Notes under the pieces: generated by a model
What the model was told of the DNA's origin: nothing
What the model saw: the letters and a program-made list of their open reading frames with translations, nothing else
The model's database searches: none
From: Dryocola sp. LX212
GTDB lineage: Bacteria; Pseudomonadota; Gammaproteobacteria; Enterobacterales; Enterobacteriaceae
Length of the DNA stretch: 64,000 bases
Reading direction: 5' to 3'
Assembly: GCA_041504365.1 (NCBI GenBank)
Contig: CP167917.1
Span: forward strand, 4,092,001 to 4,156,000
Shown: positions 13,191 through 22,737 of the stretch, piece after piece
How positions within the stretch are numbered: the first letter of the stretch is position 1
How the letters are laid out: every line of letters starts with the position of its first letter
Program-made: the position numbers and the translations under genes

Positions 13191-13457
13191 ATGGCGCGCA
13201 CGATGACTGTAGATCTCGGTGACGAGCTACGTGAGTTCATTGATTTATTAGTAGAGGCTGGTGATTACAGAACCCAGAGCGAAGTTTTACGAGATGCTTT
13301 ACGTCTGCTAAAAGAAAAGCAGGCCGCCTCTAAGCTTCAGGCTTTGAAAGAATTATTAGCGGAAGGCATCAACAGCGGAACGCCTGAAGCCTGGGAAAAA
13401 GATACTTTTCTACAACGGATGAAAGAAAAGGTGAAATCAAGGAATGAAAACAGTTGA
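13191..13457 (+). CDS. parD: Type II antitoxin, ParD family
   Basis: 88-residue antitoxin. Residues 1-45 form a ribbon-helix-helix DNA-binding domain (TMTVDLGDELREFIDLLVEA, then YRTQSEVLRDALRLL). The charged C-terminus (about 50-88) would wrap the toxin. It should neutralise ParE and, with it, repress its own promoter at the adjacent palindrome. The ATG is directly downstream of GGAGGAGGATT. Its 3' end overlaps the toxin gene by 14 bases. Base composition is more AT-rich than that of msrA or paeA, which suggests acquisition. Confidence 0.88.
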   Translation: MARTMTVDLGDELREFIDLLVEAGDYRTQSEVLRDALRLLKEKQAASKLQALKELLAEGINSGTPEAWEKDTFLQRMKEKVKSRNENS

Positions 13458-13740
13458 GCTAACGCCTAAAGCCACAGAGGACCTGGAGTCTATCTGGTTA
13501 TACAGCTACGACCGTTACGGCGAAACGAAGGCCGATGAATACATCGACAGGATTTCGATGGTCCTGAAGATGCTGATAAGCCATGAGATAGGGACTTCCA
13601 GACCTGAATTAGGTAAAAACATCTTCTCTCTACCAGCTGAACAACACGTGATCTTTTTTGTCAGCCATTGCTCCCGCATCACAGTGATTCGTATATTAAG
13701 CCATGCTCAGGATGCGCTCAGGCATTTAGCCTGGTATTAG
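13444..13740 (+). CDS. parE: Type II toxin, ParE/RelE superfamily
   Basis: 98-residue toxin. It begins MKTVELTPKATEDLESIWLY, the usual ParE opening of a strand followed by the first helix. It continues with a helical hairpin (YGETKADEYIDRISMVLKML) and the C-terminal strand pair around VIFFVSHCSRITVIRILS. ParE toxins poison DNA gyrase, though closely related RelE toxins cleave mRNA; pairing with ParD favours ParE. The start overlaps parD by 14 bases and GGAAT lies just upstream, so toxin translation depends on antitoxin translation. The gene looks intact. Confidence 0.87.
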   Translation: MKTVELTPKATEDLESIWLYSYDRYGETKADEYIDRISMVLKMLISHEIGTSRPELGKNIFSLPAEQHVIFFVSHCSRITVIRILSHAQDALRHLAWY

Positions 13741-15233: not shown

Positions 15234-15263
15234 AATATGCCGCCCAACCGGGCGGCATTTTTT
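15234..15263. terminator. Bidirectional terminator between paeA and the carbamate kinase gene
   Basis: Stem ATGCCGCC / GGCGGCAT with loop CAACCG?-type centre (CCAACCGG), followed on the plus strand by a run of eight T. It lies between convergent stops; the minus-strand T tract is weak, so it mainly serves paeA. Confidence 0.85.
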
Positions 15264-16169
15264 TTACAGATGTACCCGAGTTCCCTTCTGTCCCGCCAGA
15301 ATAGCCGGGGCGTCTTTTAACGCGCCAATCCACGCCACGTTCCCCGTCCGTTCCACAAACTCGATGACGGCCTCCGCTTTCGGCCCCATCGCCCCGTCCG
15401 GTGCGGCAAACGGTTTTAGCTGCGCCGTCGTTACGTCTTCCAGCGCTCTCGCCTGCGGCGTTCCCCAGTCCTGGTAAACCGCATCCGCGTCGGTGAGTAT
15501 CATCAGGTGCTCAGCTTCTAGCTCCACCGCCAGCCGCGACGCGGTGAGATCTTTATCGATTACAGCCTCCACGCCGCAGTACCCTTGAGTAACCGGCACG
15601 ACCGGCATGCCGCCGCCGCCCGCGCAGACCACCACGTGATCCAGCGCCAGCAGCCCTTTGATGCCCTCAACGTCCAGCACTCGCTGAGGGCGCGGGGAGG
15701 CCACCACGCGGCGGATGTACTGACCATCCTGCTTCATCTGCCAGCCATACTGCGCGCGCAGCTCCGCCTCCTGCTCCGGTGAGTAAACAGGGCCGATGTA
15801 TTTCCCCGGCGTCTGAAAAGCAGGATCGTCACCGTGCACCTCCACCCGCGTCAGCAGCGTGCTGACCAGCGGCATCCCTGCCGCTTGTCCCAGCTTCTGG
15901 GTAATCATGTAGCCCAGCATCCCCTGGGTTTCCGCCACCAGAATATCCAGCGGATAAGGCGGTGCCGCCGGGTAGGCCAGGTTTTGCAGGGCGAGCAGCC
16001 CAACCTGCGGACCATTGCCGTGGACTATCACCACGCGGTAATCGCGGCTCAGCGTCTCCACCACATCCGCCACCAGCGCAATATTTTTATATTGATTCTC
16101 TGCGGACAAAACTTCCCCGCGCTGCAATAACGCATTTCCCCCCAGGGCAATAACCAGCGTCTTCTTCAT
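15264..16169 (-). CDS. ybcF: Carbamate kinase family protein (YbcF/AllK-like)
   Basis: 301-residue amino-acid kinase-fold enzyme predicted to convert carbamoyl phosphate and ADP to ATP, CO2 and ammonia. The N-terminus KKTLVIALGGNALLQRGE and the VHGNGPQVGLLALQN motif are diagnostic of carbamate kinase. AVIDKDLTASRLAVELEAE and LTDADAVYQDWGTPQ fit the nucleotide and phosphate site, and GAMGPKAEAVIEFVE is the C-terminal signature. The sequence is closer to E. coli YbcF (allantoin locus) than to arginine-deiminase ArcC. The ATG at 16169 follows GAGGAAATAT; the longer frame to 16274 runs into AT-rich intergenic DNA. It is transcribed divergently from the MFS-fdrA operon, whereas in E. coli the kinase gene lies in the same direction as fdrA. 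Confidence 0.9.
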   Translation of the reverse strand: MKKTLVIALGGNALLQRGEVLSAENQYKNIALVADVVETLSRDYRVVIVHGNGPQVGLLALQNLAYPAAPPYPLDILVAETQGMLGYMITQKLGQAAGMPLVSTLLTRVEVHGDDPAFQTPGKYIGPVYSPEQEAELRAQYGWQMKQDGQYIRRVVASPRPQRVLDVEGIKGLLALDHVVVCAGGGGMPVVPVTQGYCGVEAVIDKDLTASRLAVELEAEHLMILTDADAVYQDWGTPQARALEDVTTAQLKPFAAPDGAMGPKAEAVIEFVERTGNVAWIGALKDAPAILAGQKGTRVHL

Positions 16170-16500
16170 ATATTTCCTCATCAGGCTGTTAGTTAATGAG
16201 CAACAAAATAAATAACTGATGAAGTTAAAATGTGATCTGCACGGCATGAAGGTGATTACCAAATTTATTTTCACAATTCAGCAAGCCATAAGGATAATTA
16301 TAAAAAACCTCCCCGCCGCGTCATTGTTTAAAATTTTTTAATAATAAATCGACGGCGGAGGCACTACTCAAAAGGAAATTATCACAATCGGGCAAGTGTG
16401 ATATTGCTCAAAAGATTCTCAGGCCCGCCCCGCTATGGTAGCGCCATCAGCTCTTACTTTTTGTTGAAAATCGGGTATTTAAGTTACTAAGGAAATTAAC
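16170..16500. promoter_or_regulatory. Divergent regulatory region of the carbamoyl-transfer island
   Basis: 331 bases, AT-rich, between the kinase gene and the MFS gene. An interrupted palindrome TATCACA-N10-TGTGATA lies at 16380-16403 and is a candidate operator for the LysR regulator of the locus. CTCAAAAG occurs at 16367-16374 and again at 16407-16414, exactly 40 bases apart, on either side of that palindrome. The MFS ribosome site is AAGGAAATTAAC before 16501. I could not assign promoters firmly. Confidence 0.5.
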
Positions 16501-17724
16501 ATGTCTGATTCAATTAACAACGCTGCGGCAACGCAAAAAAGAGGCATTCCCGCCTGGTGGGTGACCATCTTTCTCTTCTGGCTCGGCTGGATATTTATGT
16601 ACGCCGACCGCACAATATTAAACCCGGTAATGGGGGAGTTAGAAAAAGAGTTTTCATTAAGCGGCACCCAGCTCGGCATTCTTAATTCCGTATTTTATTT
16701 TTCCTATGCTCTGTTACAGGTTCCGGCTGGAATATTAGGCGATAAAATAGGGAAGAAAAAAGTTCTGGTGCCCGGCTTCTTATTATTTGGCGTATTTACC
16801 GCCGTCACCGGCTGGGCAAAAACCTGGACTACCCTGCTGTTTGCCCGCATGGTTACCGGCGCTGGCGAAGGGACCTATTACGGCCCGCAGTACGGCCTCT
16901 CCTCCGAACAGATCCCGAAAAAGTACCGCTCGCTGGGCAGCGCCATCATCAACAGCGGCATGGCCTTTGGTATCGCGCTGGGCCTGATGAGCTCCAGCTG
17001 GCTGGTTTACGACCAGGGCTACAGCTGGCGGATGCCGTTCTACGCCATGGCCGTGCCGTCAATTCTGGTGGGGCTGGGGATCTGGTTCTTCGTTAAAGAG
17101 AAAAAACGTGCGGCGGTGACCGCCGACGGCGTGGTCGTGAAGAAAGGCAAGTTCAGCGACCTGCTGAAAAACCGCAACTTGCTGCTGACCTATCTGATGG
17201 TGTTCTGCAGCCTGTTTGGCTTCTTCGTGATCCTCACCTGGCTGCCGTACTACCTGCAAAGCGAGCGCGGTATTGCGGGCAGCGAAACCGGCTTTATCTC
17301 TTCACTGGTGGCGTGGATTTCTATTCCCGGCGCGCTGATTTTCTCCTCCGTTTCTGACCGCCTCGGCAAACGTAAGCCGCTGATCTTAATCCTCGTCCCG
17401 GTCGCCATACTCAGCATGCTGTCGATTATCTGGATGCCGAGCATGACCGGCGTGGTGGTCGCCCTGTGCGTCTACGGCCTGGTTGGCAAGCTGGCGCTCG
17501 ACCCGGTGCTGGTGGCGCTGGTCGCCGACAGCGTAGATGAGAACAACTACAGCACCGCGTTTGGCCTGTTCAACTTCATCGGCATGAGCTCCTCCATCCT
17601 TGCGCCGATCATCGCGGGCGCCGCCCGGGATATGACCGGCAGCCTGGCCTCCAGCTTCTATGTTTCCGCCGTCCTGCTGGCCATCGGCCTGGTCGGCATG
17701 CTGTTTTTGAAAGAGAAGAAATAA
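16501..17724 (+). CDS. MFS transporter, anion:cation symporter-like, of the carbamoyl-transfer island
   Basis: 407-residue inner-membrane permease with about twelve hydrophobic segments. The loop after helix 2 reads GDKIGKKKVLVPG (the MFS A-motif, G-D-K-x-G-K-K-K), and the equivalent loop in the second half reads SDRLGKRKPL. Helix 1 contains FWLGWIFMYADRTILNPVM, a pattern of the family that moves sugar acids and other organic anions. It is the first gene of the operon, 15 bases before fdrA, so its substrate is probably the carbamoyl compound the downstream enzymes use (oxamate, oxalurate or a relative). The substrate is inference only. E. coli has no transporter in the matching fdrA-ylbE-ylbF-ybcF cluster. 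Confidence 0.85.
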   Translation: MSDSINNAAATQKRGIPAWWVTIFLFWLGWIFMYADRTILNPVMGELEKEFSLSGTQLGILNSVFYFSYALLQVPAGILGDKIGKKKVLVPGFLLFGVFTAVTGWAKTWTTLLFARMVTGAGEGTYYGPQYGLSSEQIPKKYRSLGSAIINSGMAFGIALGLMSSSWLVYDQGYSWRMPFYAMAVPSILVGLGIWFFVKEKKRAAVTADGVVVKKGKFSDLLKNRNLLLTYLMVFCSLFGFFVILTWLPYYLQSERGIAGSETGFISSLVAWISIPGALIFSSVSDRLGKRKPLILILVPVAILSMLSIIWMPSMTGVVVALCVYGLVGKLALDPVLVALVADSVDENNYSTAFGLFNFIGMSSSILAPIIAGAARDMTGSLASSFYVSAVLLAIGLVGMLFLKEKK

Positions 17725-17739
17725 TCAGAGGTAATAACC

Positions 17740-19407
17740 ATGATTTATGCGTTTATCAAAAAGGGCAGCTTTCAGGATTCCGTCAGCCTGATGCTCATTT
17801 CGCGCAAGCTCAGCGCGTCGCCCGAGGTAGAAGAAGTCTCGGTGATGATGGGCACGCCCGCGAACAAATCCCTGCTCGAAACCACCGGGTTCTGGCATGA
17901 GGATTTTGCCGACGCCACGCCGAACGATATCTGTACCGCCGTGCGGGCTGGCGCAGAAAATCAGGGGATCGTCGATTTGATCCGCGAACAGCTGGAAGCT
18001 GAACTGACCGCCATCACCCAGGCGGCGGGCCAGGGGCAGCATCTGGCGAAAGCGCGCCGCTGGCAGAGCGCCTGCGAAAAACTGCCGGACGCCAACCTGC
18101 TGCTGATCTCCGTGGCCGGGGAGTACGCCGCGGGCGTCGCCGAGCAGGGATTGCTGAGCGGTAAAAACGTGATGATGTTTTCCGATAACGTACCGCTTGA
18201 GCAGGAGGTTGCTCTTAAGCAGCAGGCGCGGGATCGCGGGTTGATCGTTATGGGGCCGGACTGCGGCACCGCAATGGTCGCCGGGGCGCCGCTGGCGTTT
18301 GCTAACGTGCTGCCGAAGGGCAGCATCGGGATTATCGGCGCGTCCGGTACCGGCATTCAGGAACTCGCTTCGCAAATTGCCCTTCACAACCACGGCGTCA
18401 GCCACGCCATTGGTCTTGGCGGACGCGACCTCAGCGCGGAAGTGGGCGGCATCAGCGCGCTGACGGCGCTGGAGTGGCTGGCCGCCGACGAGCAAAGCAA
18501 AGTGCTGGCCTTCGTCTCTAAGCCCCCGGCGGAAGCGGTGCGCCAGAAGGTGATCGCCGCTATGCAGCGCATCCCTAAGCCCGTTGTCGCCCTGTTCCTC
18601 GGCGCGAAGTCAGAGAAATGCAACGAGGGCAACGTCTGGCTGGCTTCTACCCTCGCACAGGCCGCACAGCTTGCCGTCATGCTCGTCTGCGTGGCGGAAG
18701 TCACCGAAACCCAGCCTGCGGTAGCCGGTAAAACCATCTCCGGGCTGTACGCCGGGGGAACGCTTGCCGCCGAAGCCGCGATGCTGCTTGCCGCGCGGCT
18801 GGACGTTGAGCCGGACGCCCATCACCACAACGGCATCATGCTGGAGGCGAAAGGCCACCGCATCGTCGACCTGGGCGACGACGTCTACACCGTGGGACGC
18901 CCGCACCCGATGATTGACCCCACCACCCGCTCCATCGAAATCGAGAAGCTCATCCAGCAAAAAGAGGTGGGCGTGCTGCTGCTGGACGTCGTGCTGGGCT
19001 TTGGCGCCTGTGCCGATCCTGCTGGCGCGGTAGTGGAAGCCGTTCAGAAAGTCCGCGAGGCGCGCGGGCCTGGCAATCCGCTGGTCGTTATCGCCACCTT
19101 AACCGGTACGGAAAACGATCCGCAGTGCCGCACCACGCAGGCCGACACGCTGCTGAACGCCGACATCGTGGTGATGAACAATCTTCAGGAAGCCATCCTG
19201 CTGGCAGCGTACCTCATCAGCCGCCACCAGCCGCCTGTCACCACGGCGCGTCCCGCCATTCTGGACGGCGTAAAAGTCATCAACGCCGGCCTGCGCAGCT
19301 TTGCCAGCGATCTGCAAAGCACGGGCACGCCGGTTGTGCACTATCAGTGGGCACCCGTTGCCGGTGGCAACGCACGGCTCGCCAGTCTGTTAAAACAACT
19401 GAATTAA
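17740..19407 (+). CDS. fdrA: FdrA/AllF, oxamate carbamoyltransferase subunit (acyl-CoA synthetase-like fold)
   Basis: 555 residues, the same length as E. coli FdrA, and clearly orthologous along its length. The fold resembles the alpha subunit of succinyl-CoA synthetase: GIIGASGTGIQELASQIALH forms a nucleotide-binding loop, preceded by MGPDCGTAMVAG and followed by GLGGRDLSAEVGG. A second half begins near residue 330 (GLYAGGTLAAEAAMLLAARL) and contains DLGDDVYTVGRPHPMIDP. In E. coli, FdrA, YlbE and YlbF have been proposed or reported together as the long-sought oxamate carbamoyltransferase (AllFGH). By that model it would turn a carbamoyl-oxamate-type substrate into oxamate and carbamoyl phosphate. 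The ATG follows AGAGGTAATAACC. Confidence 0.9.
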   Translation: MIYAFIKKGSFQDSVSLMLISRKLSASPEVEEVSVMMGTPANKSLLETTGFWHEDFADATPNDICTAVRAGAENQGIVDLIREQLEAELTAITQAAGQGQHLAKARRWQSACEKLPDANLLLISVAGEYAAGVAEQGLLSGKNVMMFSDNVPLEQEVALKQQARDRGLIVMGPDCGTAMVAGAPLAFANVLPKGSIGIIGASGTGIQELASQIALHNHGVSHAIGLGGRDLSAEVGGISALTALEWLAADEQSKVLAFVSKPPAEAVRQKVIAAMQRIPKPVVALFLGAKSEKCNEGNVWLASTLAQAAQLAVMLVCVAEVTETQPAVAGKTISGLYAGGTLAAEAAMLLAARLDVEPDAHHHNGIMLEAKGHRIVDLGDDVYTVGRPHPMIDPTTRSIEIEKLIQQKEVGVLLLDVVLGFGACADPAGAVVEAVQKVREARGPGNPLVVIATLTGTENDPQCRTTQADTLLNADIVVMNNLQEAILLAAYLISRHQPPVTTARPAILDGVKVINAGLRSFASDLQSTGTPVVHYQWAPVAGGNARLASLLKQLN

Positions 19408-19420
19408 GAAGGAAGTGGCA

Positions 19421-20683
19421 ATGTATTCATCAATTTCCGAAGCTAATGCGGCAATCATCGAGCAAATCAAAGCGGCGCGTCCCTACTGGACCGACGTACG
19501 TCTGGCCCATGAGGCCATTCCTGAGCTGGCGCAGGGCAAAAAGCTGCTCCATGCGGGCCCGCCGATCGCCTGGCAGGAGATGACTGGCCCGATGCGCGGC
19601 GCATGCCTGGGGGCCTGCCTGTTTGAAGGCTGGGCGGCTAGCGAAGAAGAGGCAAAGACCCTGCTGGACAACGGCGGCGTGACGTTCATCCCGTGCCACC
19701 ACGTCAGCGCGGTTGGCCCGATGGGGGGCATTACTTCCGCCCATATGCCGGTGCTGGTGGTGAAAAACAGCGTGCACGGCAACCAGGCCTGCTGCAACCT
19801 GAACGAAGGGATCGGCAAGGTAATGCGTTTCGGTGCCTATGGCCCGGACGTGCAGCAGCGCCTGCGCTGGATGCGCGACACCCTGGCCCCGGTGCTTCAG
19901 GAAGCGCTTGGGCGCATTGATAACGGCATCGACCTGACCGCATTAATGGCGCAGGCAATCACCATGGGCGACGAGTTCCACCAGCGTAACATTGCCGCCT
20001 CCGCCCTGCTGATGCGCACCCTGTCGCCTTATATCGTGCAGCTGGACCGCCCGAAGGCAGAGCTTGCGGAGGTGATGCAGTTCCTGAGCGTCACCGATCA
20101 GTTCTTCCTGAACCTGGCGATGGCCTACAGCAAAGCGGTAATGGACGCCGCCGCACAGATAAAAACAGGGTCGATTGTCACCGCCATGACCCGCAACGGG
20201 CGCGATTTCGGCATCCGCGTCAGCGGGCTGGGCGACCGCTGGTTTACCGCGCCGGTCAATACGCCGCAGGGGCTGTTCTTCACCGGCTTCAGCCAGGCGG
20301 ACGCCAACCCGGATATCGGCGACAGCGCCATCACCGAAACGCTGGGCATCGGCGGCGCGGCGATGATTGCGGCGCCGGGCGTGACGCGCTTCGTGGGCGC
20401 GGGCGGGATGGACGCCGCGCTGGAAACCAGCGAAGAGATGACCGAAATCTATCTCGACAGCAACCCGATGCTGCAAATCCCGTCGTGGAACTTTAAAGGG
20501 GCATGTCTGGGCCTTGATATCCGTCGCGTGGTGGAAACGGGGATCACGCCGCTGATTAACACCGGGATTGCCCACCGCGAAGCGGGCGTGGGGCAGGTAG
20601 GGGCCGGGACAGTGCGCGCACCGCTGCCCTGCTTCGAACTGGCACTTGAAGCCCTTGCGCAAGTTCATCATATTACGGCTTAA
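19421..20683 (+). CDS. ylbE: YlbE/AllG, DUF1116 family oxamate carbamoyltransferase subunit
   Basis: 420-residue DUF1116 protein, close to E. coli YlbE (419 aa). Conserved blocks include LLHAGPPIAWQEMTGPMRGA, FIPCHHVSAVGPMGGITSAH, NLNEGIGKVMRFGAYG and GACLGLDIRRVVETG. It has several conserved Cys and His residues, including the CHH cluster near residue 90. It probably works in complex with FdrA and YlbF in carbamoyl transfer. I chose the ATG at 19421, five bases after AAGGAAG. The in-frame GTG at 19415 lies inside that ribosome site. It follows fdrA by 13 bases. Confidence 0.9.
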   Translation: MYSSISEANAAIIEQIKAARPYWTDVRLAHEAIPELAQGKKLLHAGPPIAWQEMTGPMRGACLGACLFEGWAASEEEAKTLLDNGGVTFIPCHHVSAVGPMGGITSAHMPVLVVKNSVHGNQACCNLNEGIGKVMRFGAYGPDVQQRLRWMRDTLAPVLQEALGRIDNGIDLTALMAQAITMGDEFHQRNIAASALLMRTLSPYIVQLDRPKAELAEVMQFLSVTDQFFLNLAMAYSKAVMDAAAQIKTGSIVTAMTRNGRDFGIRVSGLGDRWFTAPVNTPQGLFFTGFSQADANPDIGDSAITETLGIGGAAMIAAPGVTRFVGAGGMDAALETSEEMTEIYLDSNPMLQIPSWNFKGACLGLDIRRVVETGITPLINTGIAHREAGVGQVGAGTVRAPLPCFELALEALAQVHHITA

Positions 20684-20729
20684 ACCTACGAGGGGGCGGC
20701 GCTGCTGCCCCTCAAATGGAGCGATATGA

Positions 20730-21554
20730 ATGGATCTCTTTCTGGCGCCGGGCGGCAGCGGGCTGCCCTTTCCTGACGGCAGCGAACTTCGCCTGCACAG
20801 CCGCTTTACCCACGCCATTAACGTGAAGCACCCCAGCGGCAGGCTTTTTACTTTTCATCGCTATGGCAAAGGCTGTAGCCCAACCGGCTGGATTTTTCAT
20901 AATGACGATTTCGATAAAATTAACCGCTTTATTGCCGCTGATAGCACCTTAAACGTCAAAAATCGAGGCTTTACTGGTCGTGGGTACTCGCTGCGAAACC
21001 GGCGTCGACTGAATTTTAACGTCCCAGAAGGCGAGATTGCGCCGCCCGACCTGCACAAATTCACTAACCCGACGGGCCTGCTCGGCCCGCTCAACGAGGC
21101 GGTTAACCAGCAGGATCATCCCCTGCTGAAATTACTGACCCACCAGCTGGACCGCTGGCTGGCAGGTCATAGGCCGGACTGGCGCGGCCTGATTGGCCTG
21201 GGGCCGGGGCTGACGCCGAGCGGCGATGATATGCTGACCGGCGCGCTGGCGGCGCTCTATTCCAACCAACAACTCCTTGCCCTTAACCGTTACCCTTTAA
21301 TTCTGCCGGACTTTCAGTCGCTTTTAACACTGACCACATCCGTGAGCTGTAGCTATCTCGACAGCGCTGCCAGAGGGCAGTTCTCAACGCCGCTGGTAAG
21401 ACTCATGGGCCGTCTGGCCCATTCTCGCGATAGCAAAACCGCCATCCGTGATCTGCTCGGTCACGGCCATACTTCCGGCGCAGATACCCTTCTCGGGCTG
21501 GTTACCGGGCTGCGCTGGCTCAGGAAAGCGTTTCCAGGAGCCAATCATGCTTGA
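20730..21554 (+). CDS. ylbF: YlbF/AllH, DUF2877 family oxamate carbamoyltransferase subunit
   Basis: 274-residue DUF2877 protein (E. coli YlbF 271). The diagnostic C-terminal block IGLGPGLTPSGDDMLTGALA is at about residues 154-173, and GHGHTSGADTLLGLVTG is near the end. It is the third member of the FdrA-YlbE-YlbF set. The ATG at 20730 is eight bases after GGAG. An overlapping ATG at 20726 is out of frame. Its 3' end overlaps the LysR gene by eight bases, so regulator and enzymes share one transcript. Confidence 0.87.
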   Translation: MDLFLAPGGSGLPFPDGSELRLHSRFTHAINVKHPSGRLFTFHRYGKGCSPTGWIFHNDDFDKINRFIAADSTLNVKNRGFTGRGYSLRNRRRLNFNVPEGEIAPPDLHKFTNPTGLLGPLNEAVNQQDHPLLKLLTHQLDRWLAGHRPDWRGLIGLGPGLTPSGDDMLTGALAALYSNQQLLALNRYPLILPDFQSLLTLTTSVSCSYLDSAARGQFSTPLVRLMGRLAHSRDSKTAIRDLLGHGHTSGADTLLGLVTGLRWLRKAFPGANHA

Positions 21555-22479
21555 CCATGAAACGATTCGCACTTTTATTAAGGTCGCGGAAACCGGCAGC
21601 TTTTCACAGGCCGCCGCCGCGCTGCATAAAACCCCGGCGGCGATGAGCTACCGCATCAAGACGCTGGAAGAGCACGTCGGCACCCTGCTGTTTACCCGCA
21701 CCACGCGCACGGTGAACCTGACGCTGGCGGGCGAATGCCTGCTGGAACATTGCCGACAGTGGCTAAGCTGGGTCGACGGCATGCCGGACGAGCTTAAGCA
21801 GATTAACGCCGGGGTGGAGCGCCAGGTTAACATCGTGGTCAACAACCTGCTCTACCAGTCCCAGGCCGTGGCGGAGTTTCTTGCCTGGCTGCACAGGCGC
21901 TTCCCGTTTACCCAGTTTCAGATCTCCCGCCAGGTCTATATGGGCGTCTGGGACGCGCTGCTGTATGACGATTTTCACATCGCCATCGGCGTGACCGGTT
22001 CGGAGTCCCTTTCGAACAATATTGCGCTTCACCCGCTGGGCGAGATTTCGTGGCTGTTCGTCGTCGCGCCGCACCATCCGTTAGCCAAAATCAGCGGCGA
22101 AACCATCGCGGAAGAGCATCTCCGGCGCTATCCCGCCATTAATATCGACGACACCTCACGGACGCTAACGCGCCGCGTCGCCTGGCTGCTGCCGGGCCAG
22201 AAAGAGATCAAAGTGCCGGATATCAGCACCAAGCTGGAGTGCCATCTCAAAGGGCTGGGGATTGGTTTTTTACCCTATAACCTCTGCCAGCCGTGGCTGG
22301 AAAGCGGCGAGCTGGTGACGAGGAAAGTCGAGCGCGCACGGCAGCCGTCGCAGCTTTCTCTGGCGTGGAAATCAACGGGAGTGGGTAAAGCGATAAGGGA
22401 AGTTGTGACGCAGTTTCAGCGCAATGAGCCGACGATCAGGGGATTTTTAAACCAGATAGACCGCAGGCCCACTCGATAA
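21547..22479 (+). CDS. allS: LysR family transcriptional regulator, AllS-like
   Basis: 310-residue LysR protein. The N-terminal winged helix-turn-helix (ETGSFSQAAAALHKTPAAMS, then YRIKTLEEHVGTLLFTR) is followed by an effector domain with NNLLYQSQAVAEFLAWLHRR and ISRQVYMGVWDALLYDDFHI. These segments closely match E. coli AllS, the activator of the allantoin genes. It is the promoter-distal gene of the MFS-fdrA-ylbE-ylbF operon and probably controls both this operon and the divergent kinase gene. The ATG at 21547 is seven bases after CAGGAG; longer in-frame starts lie inside ylbF. Whether it senses glyoxylate, allantoin or a carbamoyl compound is unknown, so the symbol denotes similarity only. 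Confidence 0.85.
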   Translation: MLDHETIRTFIKVAETGSFSQAAAALHKTPAAMSYRIKTLEEHVGTLLFTRTTRTVNLTLAGECLLEHCRQWLSWVDGMPDELKQINAGVERQVNIVVNNLLYQSQAVAEFLAWLHRRFPFTQFQISRQVYMGVWDALLYDDFHIAIGVTGSESLSNNIALHPLGEISWLFVVAPHHPLAKISGETIAEEHLRRYPAINIDDTSRTLTRRVAWLLPGQKEIKVPDISTKLECHLKGLGIGFLPYNLCQPWLESGELVTRKVERARQPSQLSLAWKSTGVGKAIREVVTQFQRNEPTIRGFLNQIDRRPTR

Positions 22480-22486
22480 AAACACT

Positions 22487-22516
22487 AACGGCACCCTCGG
22501 GTGCCGTTTTGTTTTT
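22487..22516. terminator. Terminator between the LysR gene and ytfK
   Basis: Stem AACGGCACC / GGTGCCGTT with a short CTCG-type loop, followed by TTTGTTTTT on the plus strand. It lies between convergent genes and may act in both directions. Confidence 0.88.
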
Positions 22517-22530
22517 ACTACCTGATGGCT

Positions 22531-22737
22531 TTACGCCATCTCCGCCTGCATGCGCAGAACCTGGCGGTTTACTTCAGACATAACGGATAAGTGCTGCTTA
22601 TCTTTCACTTTTGGGATGAGGATCTTGCCCTTATCGAACTCAAAAGCGCCAACGTCCTTGATGTACAACCGTCCACGGAACAGGATTTTCACGTACTTCG
22701 CCACCTGAAGCGGGTTGTAACGTTGGAAAATTTTCAT
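22531..22737 (-). CDS. ytfK: Stringent-response modulator YtfK
   Basis: 68 residues, nearly identical to E. coli YtfK ([20 protein letters not shown], then [20 protein letters not shown]). In E. coli this DUF1107 protein binds SpoT and shifts it towards (p)ppGpp synthesis during phosphate or fatty-acid starvation. The ATG at 22737 follows AGGAGAGTAAAAACA. The frame extends upstream to 22839, but that part has no family match. In E. coli ytfK lies next to ytfL (paeA); here 7.3 kb of inserted DNA separates them. Confidence 0.95.

Follow-up and report, generated by a model that had tools for sequence, protein, structure and literature searches.

A six-gene unit of Dryocola sp. LX212 proposed for use of external oxalurate, at the end of a series of shortened allantoin pathways

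In a 64,000-nucleotide stretch of the genome of Dryocola sp. LX212 (the window; contig CP167917.1), six open reading frames form a divergon flanked by paeA and ytfK: a carbamate kinase gene runs leftward, and genes for a major facilitator superfamily (MFS) transporter, for AllF, AllG and AllH, and for a LysR-type regulator run rightward. We argue that this unit (hereafter, the island) is a pair of operons for the use of external oxalurate, a late product of purine breakdown, and that, among allantoin pathways shortened step by step like the rungs of a ladder, it is the shortest, a reading to which we give a probability of roughly 0.7.

In the scheme that we propose, the MFS protein would import the oxalurate anion, probably together with protons, and AllF, AllG and AllH would convert oxalurate and phosphate into oxamate and carbamoyl phosphate, as has been shown for their E. 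coli homologues. The kinase would then pass the phosphate to ADP, yielding ATP, ammonia and CO2 (the reaction shown for E. coli YbcF/AllK), and oxamate would probably be released. Both arms of the divergon would be switched by the operon's own AllS-like regulator, and ArcA- and CRP-like sequences upstream suggest anaerobic use.

Rungs of the allantoin pathway and their transporters

We searched for AllG in 392 genomes of the family, 108 of which have a match at 1e-20 or better (labels beginning with G and L denote genomes and loci). AllG of the all or island kind occurs in 62 of the 392 (at least 73% identity, with the split gene of G311 included), the remaining matches being yah-like or weaker. 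When AllD, AllB and AllE were scored at curated cut-offs across the same genomes, these 62 were found to hold AllB, AllE and AllD (16 genomes), AllE and AllD (8), AllD alone (7) or none of the three (31), and no further combination occurred. The 31 island loci comprise 29 with AllG at 82-100%, G311 with its split allG, and G032, with AllG at 76% but an MFS at 84% and no AllD. No AllB, AllD or AllE over cut-off was found in any of the 31 island genomes; allantoinase-like proteins in G126 and G296 reach 288-291 bits (AllB cut-off, 357.85), and an AllD-like protein with a stop in G070 reaches 317.9 bits (cut-off, 496.2). AllD is thereby present in 31/31 genomes of the allantoin type versus 0/31 island genomes. 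Outside the 62, three genomes have AllD over cut-off and three have AllB, without AllG of the all or island type.

A separate transporter accompanies each of the shortened rungs at the fetched loci. The island MFS (84-100% identity) occurs in 30 of the 31 genomes of the last rung and in none of the 31 of the other rungs, nor elsewhere among the 392; the sole island genome without it, G316, is represented by a 73%-complete assembly, and its contig stops within allF. On the rung with AllE and AllD, a different MFS, 37-39% identical to that of the island, lies between allE and allC in all eight genomes (L079, L086-L088, L090, L091, L096 and L099). This kind was sought only at the fetched loci, i.e., in 15/15 middle-rung genomes and 5/16 full-rung genomes (G260, G046, G322, G337 and G273), and among the latter G337 has it beside allC, while G260 has an MFS at 35% between glxR and allW. 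A third MFS, 46-49% identical to that of the island, is present in 7/7 genomes with AllD alone, beside allD in three (L081-L083) and after the kinase gene in four. It occurs further in 5/8 genomes with AllE and AllD and in 1/16 full-rung genomes; in G060 and G180 it is on a contig other than that of the all genes. In a tree built by a quick method, and with long branches, the three MFS kinds form three separate groups (support 93-100).

The natural reading of this pattern is that the rungs are entry points for allantoate, ureidoglycolate and oxalurate, with the 37-39% and 46-49% MFS kinds being candidate importers of allantoate and ureidoglycolate, respectively. The ladder proposes specific importers for these two compounds and suggests that members of a community share out purine nitrogen by entering the pathway at three points. 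The wider proposition, i.e., that the island is a mobile oxalurate-fermentation operon, that each shortening was paired with a new MFS importer (for allantoate, ureidoglycolate or oxalurate) and that bacteria divide the pathway among themselves, seems to us evenly balanced between being right and being wrong. If it is right, the island would hold the first dedicated oxalurate transporter and an AllS-type regulator that senses its inducer directly.

Cross-feeding on oxalurate through stand-alone allFGHK genes has already been proposed for ammonia oxidisers in the available part of PMC12625717, so that the concept of an oxalurate module is not wholly new. Those sets resemble the island in that oxalurate made by others would be used and the upstream purine genes are missing; they differ in belonging to Archaea and Nitrospira and in lying beside biuret/triuret genes, and the same part of that paper reports neither this MFS nor an AllS-type regulator. 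In the open-licence papers searched, we found no dedicated MFS, built-in AllS or ladder of this sort. With AllS built in, AllR absent and a single candidate substrate, the operon offers a way to study both oxalurate transport and the AllS effector in a laboratory strain.

Of 345 genomes from the order, three have the island-type MFS, all of them from the present family, and five have a 46-48% relative. Genomes from another family of the order (L121 and L123; 2.2-2.4 Mb) carry AllFGHK-type genes with a 46-48% MFS, which in L123 stands beside allD, with allB near.

Gene identities, substrate and transport

The features of the region, with identities given for window proteins against E. coli K-12 and with family scores from profile searches judged against curated cut-offs, are as follows.

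15237..15258, + strand: terminator-like stem-loop between paeA and the kinase gene, with a 9-bp stem and a T run
15264..16169, - strand: catabolic carbamate kinase (AllK/YbcF type), 301 aa; NF006926 at 473.9 bits (cut-off 416), 60% to YbcF
16231..16235, + strand: kinase-proximal TGTGA, present in 24/24 island intergenic regions
16322..16348, + strand: conserved AT-rich block, resembling the stretch from -134 to -108 upstream of E. coli allF
16397..16412, + strand: conserved CRP-like TGTGA-N6-TCA, with TGTGA in 24/24 islands
16501..17724, + strand: MFS transporter (PF07690), proposed oxalurate importer
17740..19407, + strand: AllF (FdrA), oxamate carbamoyltransferase subunit; NF004760 at 870.9 (cut-off 433), 63% to FdrA, solved homologue 3dmy
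19415..20683, + strand: AllG (YlbE, DUF1116), oxamate carbamoyltransferase subunit; PF06545 at 333.3 (cut-off 27), 76% to YlbE, solved homologue 3clq
20730..21554, + strand: AllH (YlbF, DUF2877), oxamate carbamoyltransferase subunit; PF11392 at 96.1 (cut-off 25), 34% to YlbF
21547..22479, + strand: AllS-like LysR regulator, at the end of the operon; NF007501 at 504.3 (cut-off 372), 61% to AllS
22487..22508, + strand: terminator-like stem-loop 3' of the LysR gene
22531-22737, - strand: ytfK, the right flank

These coordinates and scores agree with a preliminary description of the DNA, which had placed a six-gene divergon between paeA and ytfK, and the gene families are consistent with the carbamoyl transfer and conservation of energy as ATP that it had suggested. 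The kinase starts at the ATG at 16169, the open reading frame listed as 15264-16274 including a GTG extension, and it scores slightly under the cut-off of the ArcC model TIGR00746 (353.2 against 358.25 bits). Because the genes of the rightward set are separated by gaps of only 15, 7 and 46 bp, followed by an 8-bp overlap of allH and the LysR gene, the set looks like a single operon ending in the regulator gene. There are 21 terminator-like stems in the region versus 8.5 expected in shuffles, the two at the outer ends being among the strongest; a scan of the region for sigma-70 promoters gave two sites versus 2.7 expected. No integrase or transposase was found within the six-gene unit, either among the open reading frames of the window or by family search. 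The order of the six genes is kept in other genomes far beyond chance.

The island shares with the all cluster of E. coli its enzyme families, at 60-76% identity apart from AllH, as well as an activator of the AllS type and the AT-rich and TGTGA blocks upstream. Unlike that cluster, it is without AllB, AllD, AllE and AllR, has an MFS of its own, occupies other chromosomal sites, and has its kinase gene divergent (in E. coli, last in the operon) and its regulator inside the operon. The preliminary description had supposed that the substrate may not be that of the allantoin pathway, a supposition that the enzymes do not favour. We compared 31 island rows with 20-21 rows of the allantoin type, taking as conserved those columns with 95% or more of one letter: 594 columns are conserved with the same letter in both types (AllF 218, AllG 233, AllH 39, kinase 104) and five hold fixed differences (AllF 2, AllG 3, none in AllH or the kinase), as expected if the reaction is unchanged. 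That reaction is documented in E. coli, where AllFGH convert oxamate and carbamoyl phosphate to oxalurate and back (PMC11326118, in its available part).

A module that takes up a different ureido acid, such as another N-carbamoyl carboxylate, through the MFS and cleaves it by a related phosphorolysis would account for the divergence of AllH and for an MFS unlike any characterised transporter; and other FdrA/DUF1116 modules seem to have other substrates, including yah (L004) and, in the available part of PMC12928451, region GR29 of extraintestinal pathogenic E. coli (ExPEC), with its CodB- and RutB-like genes. We nevertheless consider this unlikely, since the fixed differences are so few, whereas yah proteins are only 38-45% identical to AllF, AllG and the kinase of the window, and since it is precisely on the last rung that the MFS takes the place of AllD. 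The yahBCDEFGHIJ genes resemble the island in combining FdrA, DUF1116, DUF2877 and carbamate kinase genes with a LysR gene; beyond the lower identity, they differ in gene order and in having an amidohydrolase. GR29 is likewise an accessory region in which a transporter accompanies genes for carbamate kinase, DUF1116 and FdrA, but the available text gives it a CodB-like permease and a RutB-like hydrolase and its proteins are closer to yah/YqeA.

The substrate of the MFS bears on the same question. Among proteins of solved structure, the nearest to it in sequence is the galactonate:H+ symporter DgoT (SLC17-like), at 58 bits only, and from context its substrate is certainly different. Four positions of DgoT (D46, R47, R126 and E133) are kept in the island MFS as D36, R37, R116 and E123, in 34/34 rows from 31 distinct loci. 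According to the available part of PMC6532931, D46 and E133 are required for active proton-coupled transport by DgoT and R47 holds the carboxylate of the substrate. The equivalent positions are G/S, R, W and Q in the 46-49% MFS (13/13) and Y, R, S and C in the 37-39% MFS (10/10). These residues suggest that the island MFS imports carboxylates together with protons, as would suit oxalurate. An AlphaFold model of the MFS, built from six close sequences, had a mean pLDDT of 35.4 and was not used. No oxalurate transporter is described in the open-licence papers searched.

Alternatively, the cell might produce oxalurate internally by some other route, with the MFS exporting oxamate or exchanging oxalurate for oxamate. 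Substrate/product exchangers serve the carbamoyl-phosphate pathways for amines and arginine, which lends this idea some appeal; and oxamate, a dead-end product in E. coli, builds up there during allantoin use (available part of PMC8550087). But the proton-coupling residues of an importer have their counterparts in D36 and E123, making a pure oxalurate/oxamate exchanger less likely, no AllB, AllD or AllE is present to make oxalurate, and oxamate is produced in E. coli although the all cluster there has no such MFS; we regard internal production with export or exchange as improbable.

Control of the divergon and the case against oxalurate

Two blocks are conserved across 24 island intergenic regions, one AT-rich and the other with the form TGTGA-N6-TCA, in addition to the kinase-proximal TGTGA; the CRP-like label follows the CRP consensus. 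Both blocks were scored on 13 allD-allF intergenic regions of the allantoin type against 100 first-order Markov shuffles of each. The AT block beats all 100 shuffles in 8/13 regions, two of them on the minus strand, and in the other five its score is reached by 1, 2, 3, 8 and 16 shuffles; the TGTGA-N6-TCA block beats all 100 in 11/13 and is reached by 9 and 21 shuffles in the other two. A site similar to the latter occurs at -102 to -87 of E. coli allF. The E. coli counterparts of both blocks fall within the fragment from -142 to -83 upstream of allF that binds phosphorylated ArcA, as given in the available part of PMC12535856.

The same part of that paper places E. coli allS under control through AllR. 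Among nine island genomes tested, no AllR-like protein exceeds 44% identity, so that the AllS of the island must be induced otherwise, perhaps directly by the substrate.

Several points weigh against an oxalurate module. DNA binding by E. coli AllS was unchanged by oxalurate or four other compounds (PMC12535856, available part), and the affinity of the E. coli oxamate carbamoyltransferase for oxamate is weak, with a KM of 36.9 mM (PMC11326118, in the part available). AllH, as listed above, is only 34% identical to YlbF, and the MFS, at 182.9 bits against the galactonate-transporter model TIGR00893 (cut-off 395), is a distant relative only; as no transporter of solved structure is close to it, the proposed substrate is taken from its genomic context. 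An external source of oxalurate is needed, and a literature search on oxaluric acid in urine gave nothing relevant. In the full set of 392 genomes, islands lack an accompanying AllD no more often than expected by chance (Fisher p = 0.094); we therefore do not claim a genome-wide avoidance of AllD, and the argument rests on the contrast between island and allantoin-type genomes and on the ladder. Finally, AllF, AllG and the kinase of the island form one clade (support 83/13 with G032 and 99/99 without it), so that the ladder and the AllD contrast represent few evolutionary events and not 62.

Host genome, sites and mobility

The nearest named relative of the window genome is Cedecea sulfonylureivorans, whose island proteins are 93-99% identical; a further named relative, Buttiauxella sp. 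A111, lies outside the 392. A literature search on Cedecea with allantoin gave nothing relevant. Within the window genome, AllB reaches at best 23.6 bits (cut-off 357.85) and AllD 110.7 bits (cut-off 496.2), AllE has no match, and the best AllR match is 42% identical; the all-type genome G260 has a 91% AllR plus a 42% paralogue. With AllB, AllD and AllE below cut-off here and in the other 30 island genomes, the earlier view of a stand-alone import module with its own transporter and regulator holds. A second complete fdrA set of the allantoin kind in the window genome is rejected, the sole AllG locus other than the island being of the yah type (L005 5608-14079, G000:C1:1263608-1272079; 70-87% to E. 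coli YahB, D, F, G, I and J, and 47% to YahE). Coupling of the island to such loci was considered, but a second AllG (44-52%) occurs in only 16/31 island genomes, so the island needs no yah. Locus L005 differs from the island in a 512-aa, hydrophobic, membrane-protein-like open reading frame between yahG and yahI, where K-12 has yahH; it has no Pfam match at 0.001 and might carry the yah substrate across the membrane.

In E. coli K-12, paeA and ytfK adjoin, and the preliminary description had the unit inserted at that junction. Among the six genomes examined from the genus-level (Cedecea) group, the island is there in three (the window, G065 and G388), G265 and G333 have an empty site of about 80 bp, and G188 has a different insert of about 1.9 kb. 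Insertion thus stands for the window, but most relatives carry the unit elsewhere. There are six kinds of site among the 31 loci: 20 islands adjoin mscS, 16 of them with pgk/fbaA genes on the opposite side, three lie at paeA-ytfK, and one to three lie at each of four other gene pairs. The names mscS and argO come from annotation in E. coli records, whereas most other flanking genes (pgk, fbaA, hpt, can, argI, sbcB, qmcA, etc.) are presumed from their sequences.

The unit is also present in three of 5,426 E. coli genomes (strains CM2, 23CRST013 and GF4), with all six genes annotated and no pseudogene flag. All three carriers have transposase genes of the IS66 and IS4 families beside the kinase gene, and a damaged mscS 3' of the regulator, joined in two by argO; two have a tRNA-Phe gene and an integrase nearby. 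It looks as if part of an fbaA-mscS donor site was carried along, and the E. coli copy is closest to that of G001 (88% over 7,175 bp). Each carrier has three matching places, so resident fdrA-like loci do not keep the unit out. The unit moves between genomes as a whole; carriage on plasmids is rejected, as none of 72,556 plasmid records has 80% of the query in one place.

These data also bear on a further alternative, in which the island would be what remains of a larger allantoin cluster and would not function as an autonomous unit. Sequence relatedness to the all cluster, the split allG of G311 and the three other Cedecea-group genomes without an island would fit a remnant. Against this stand six open frames, an order kept in 29 of the 30 other loci of the family (the exception being G316, at its contig edge) across the six kinds of site, a regulator and a transporter of its own, and recent entry into E. 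coli with the six genes unbroken in annotation, and we think a remnant very improbable. In G311 (L075), where allG is in two frames, the unit may be decaying.

The insert of G188 (L112 2160-4108) holds a colicin M-like gene (PF14859, 300.1 bits) beside a YebF-like gene (PF13995, 36.5 bits; cut-off 27), from which it follows that the paeA-ytfK junction accepts different inserts. On the other side of paeA, the msrA-paeA gap, which has no annotated gene in E. coli K-12, is occupied at 13191-13740 of the window by a toxin-antitoxin pair of the ParD/ParE type (PF03693, 62.3 bits; PF05016, 41.9 bits).

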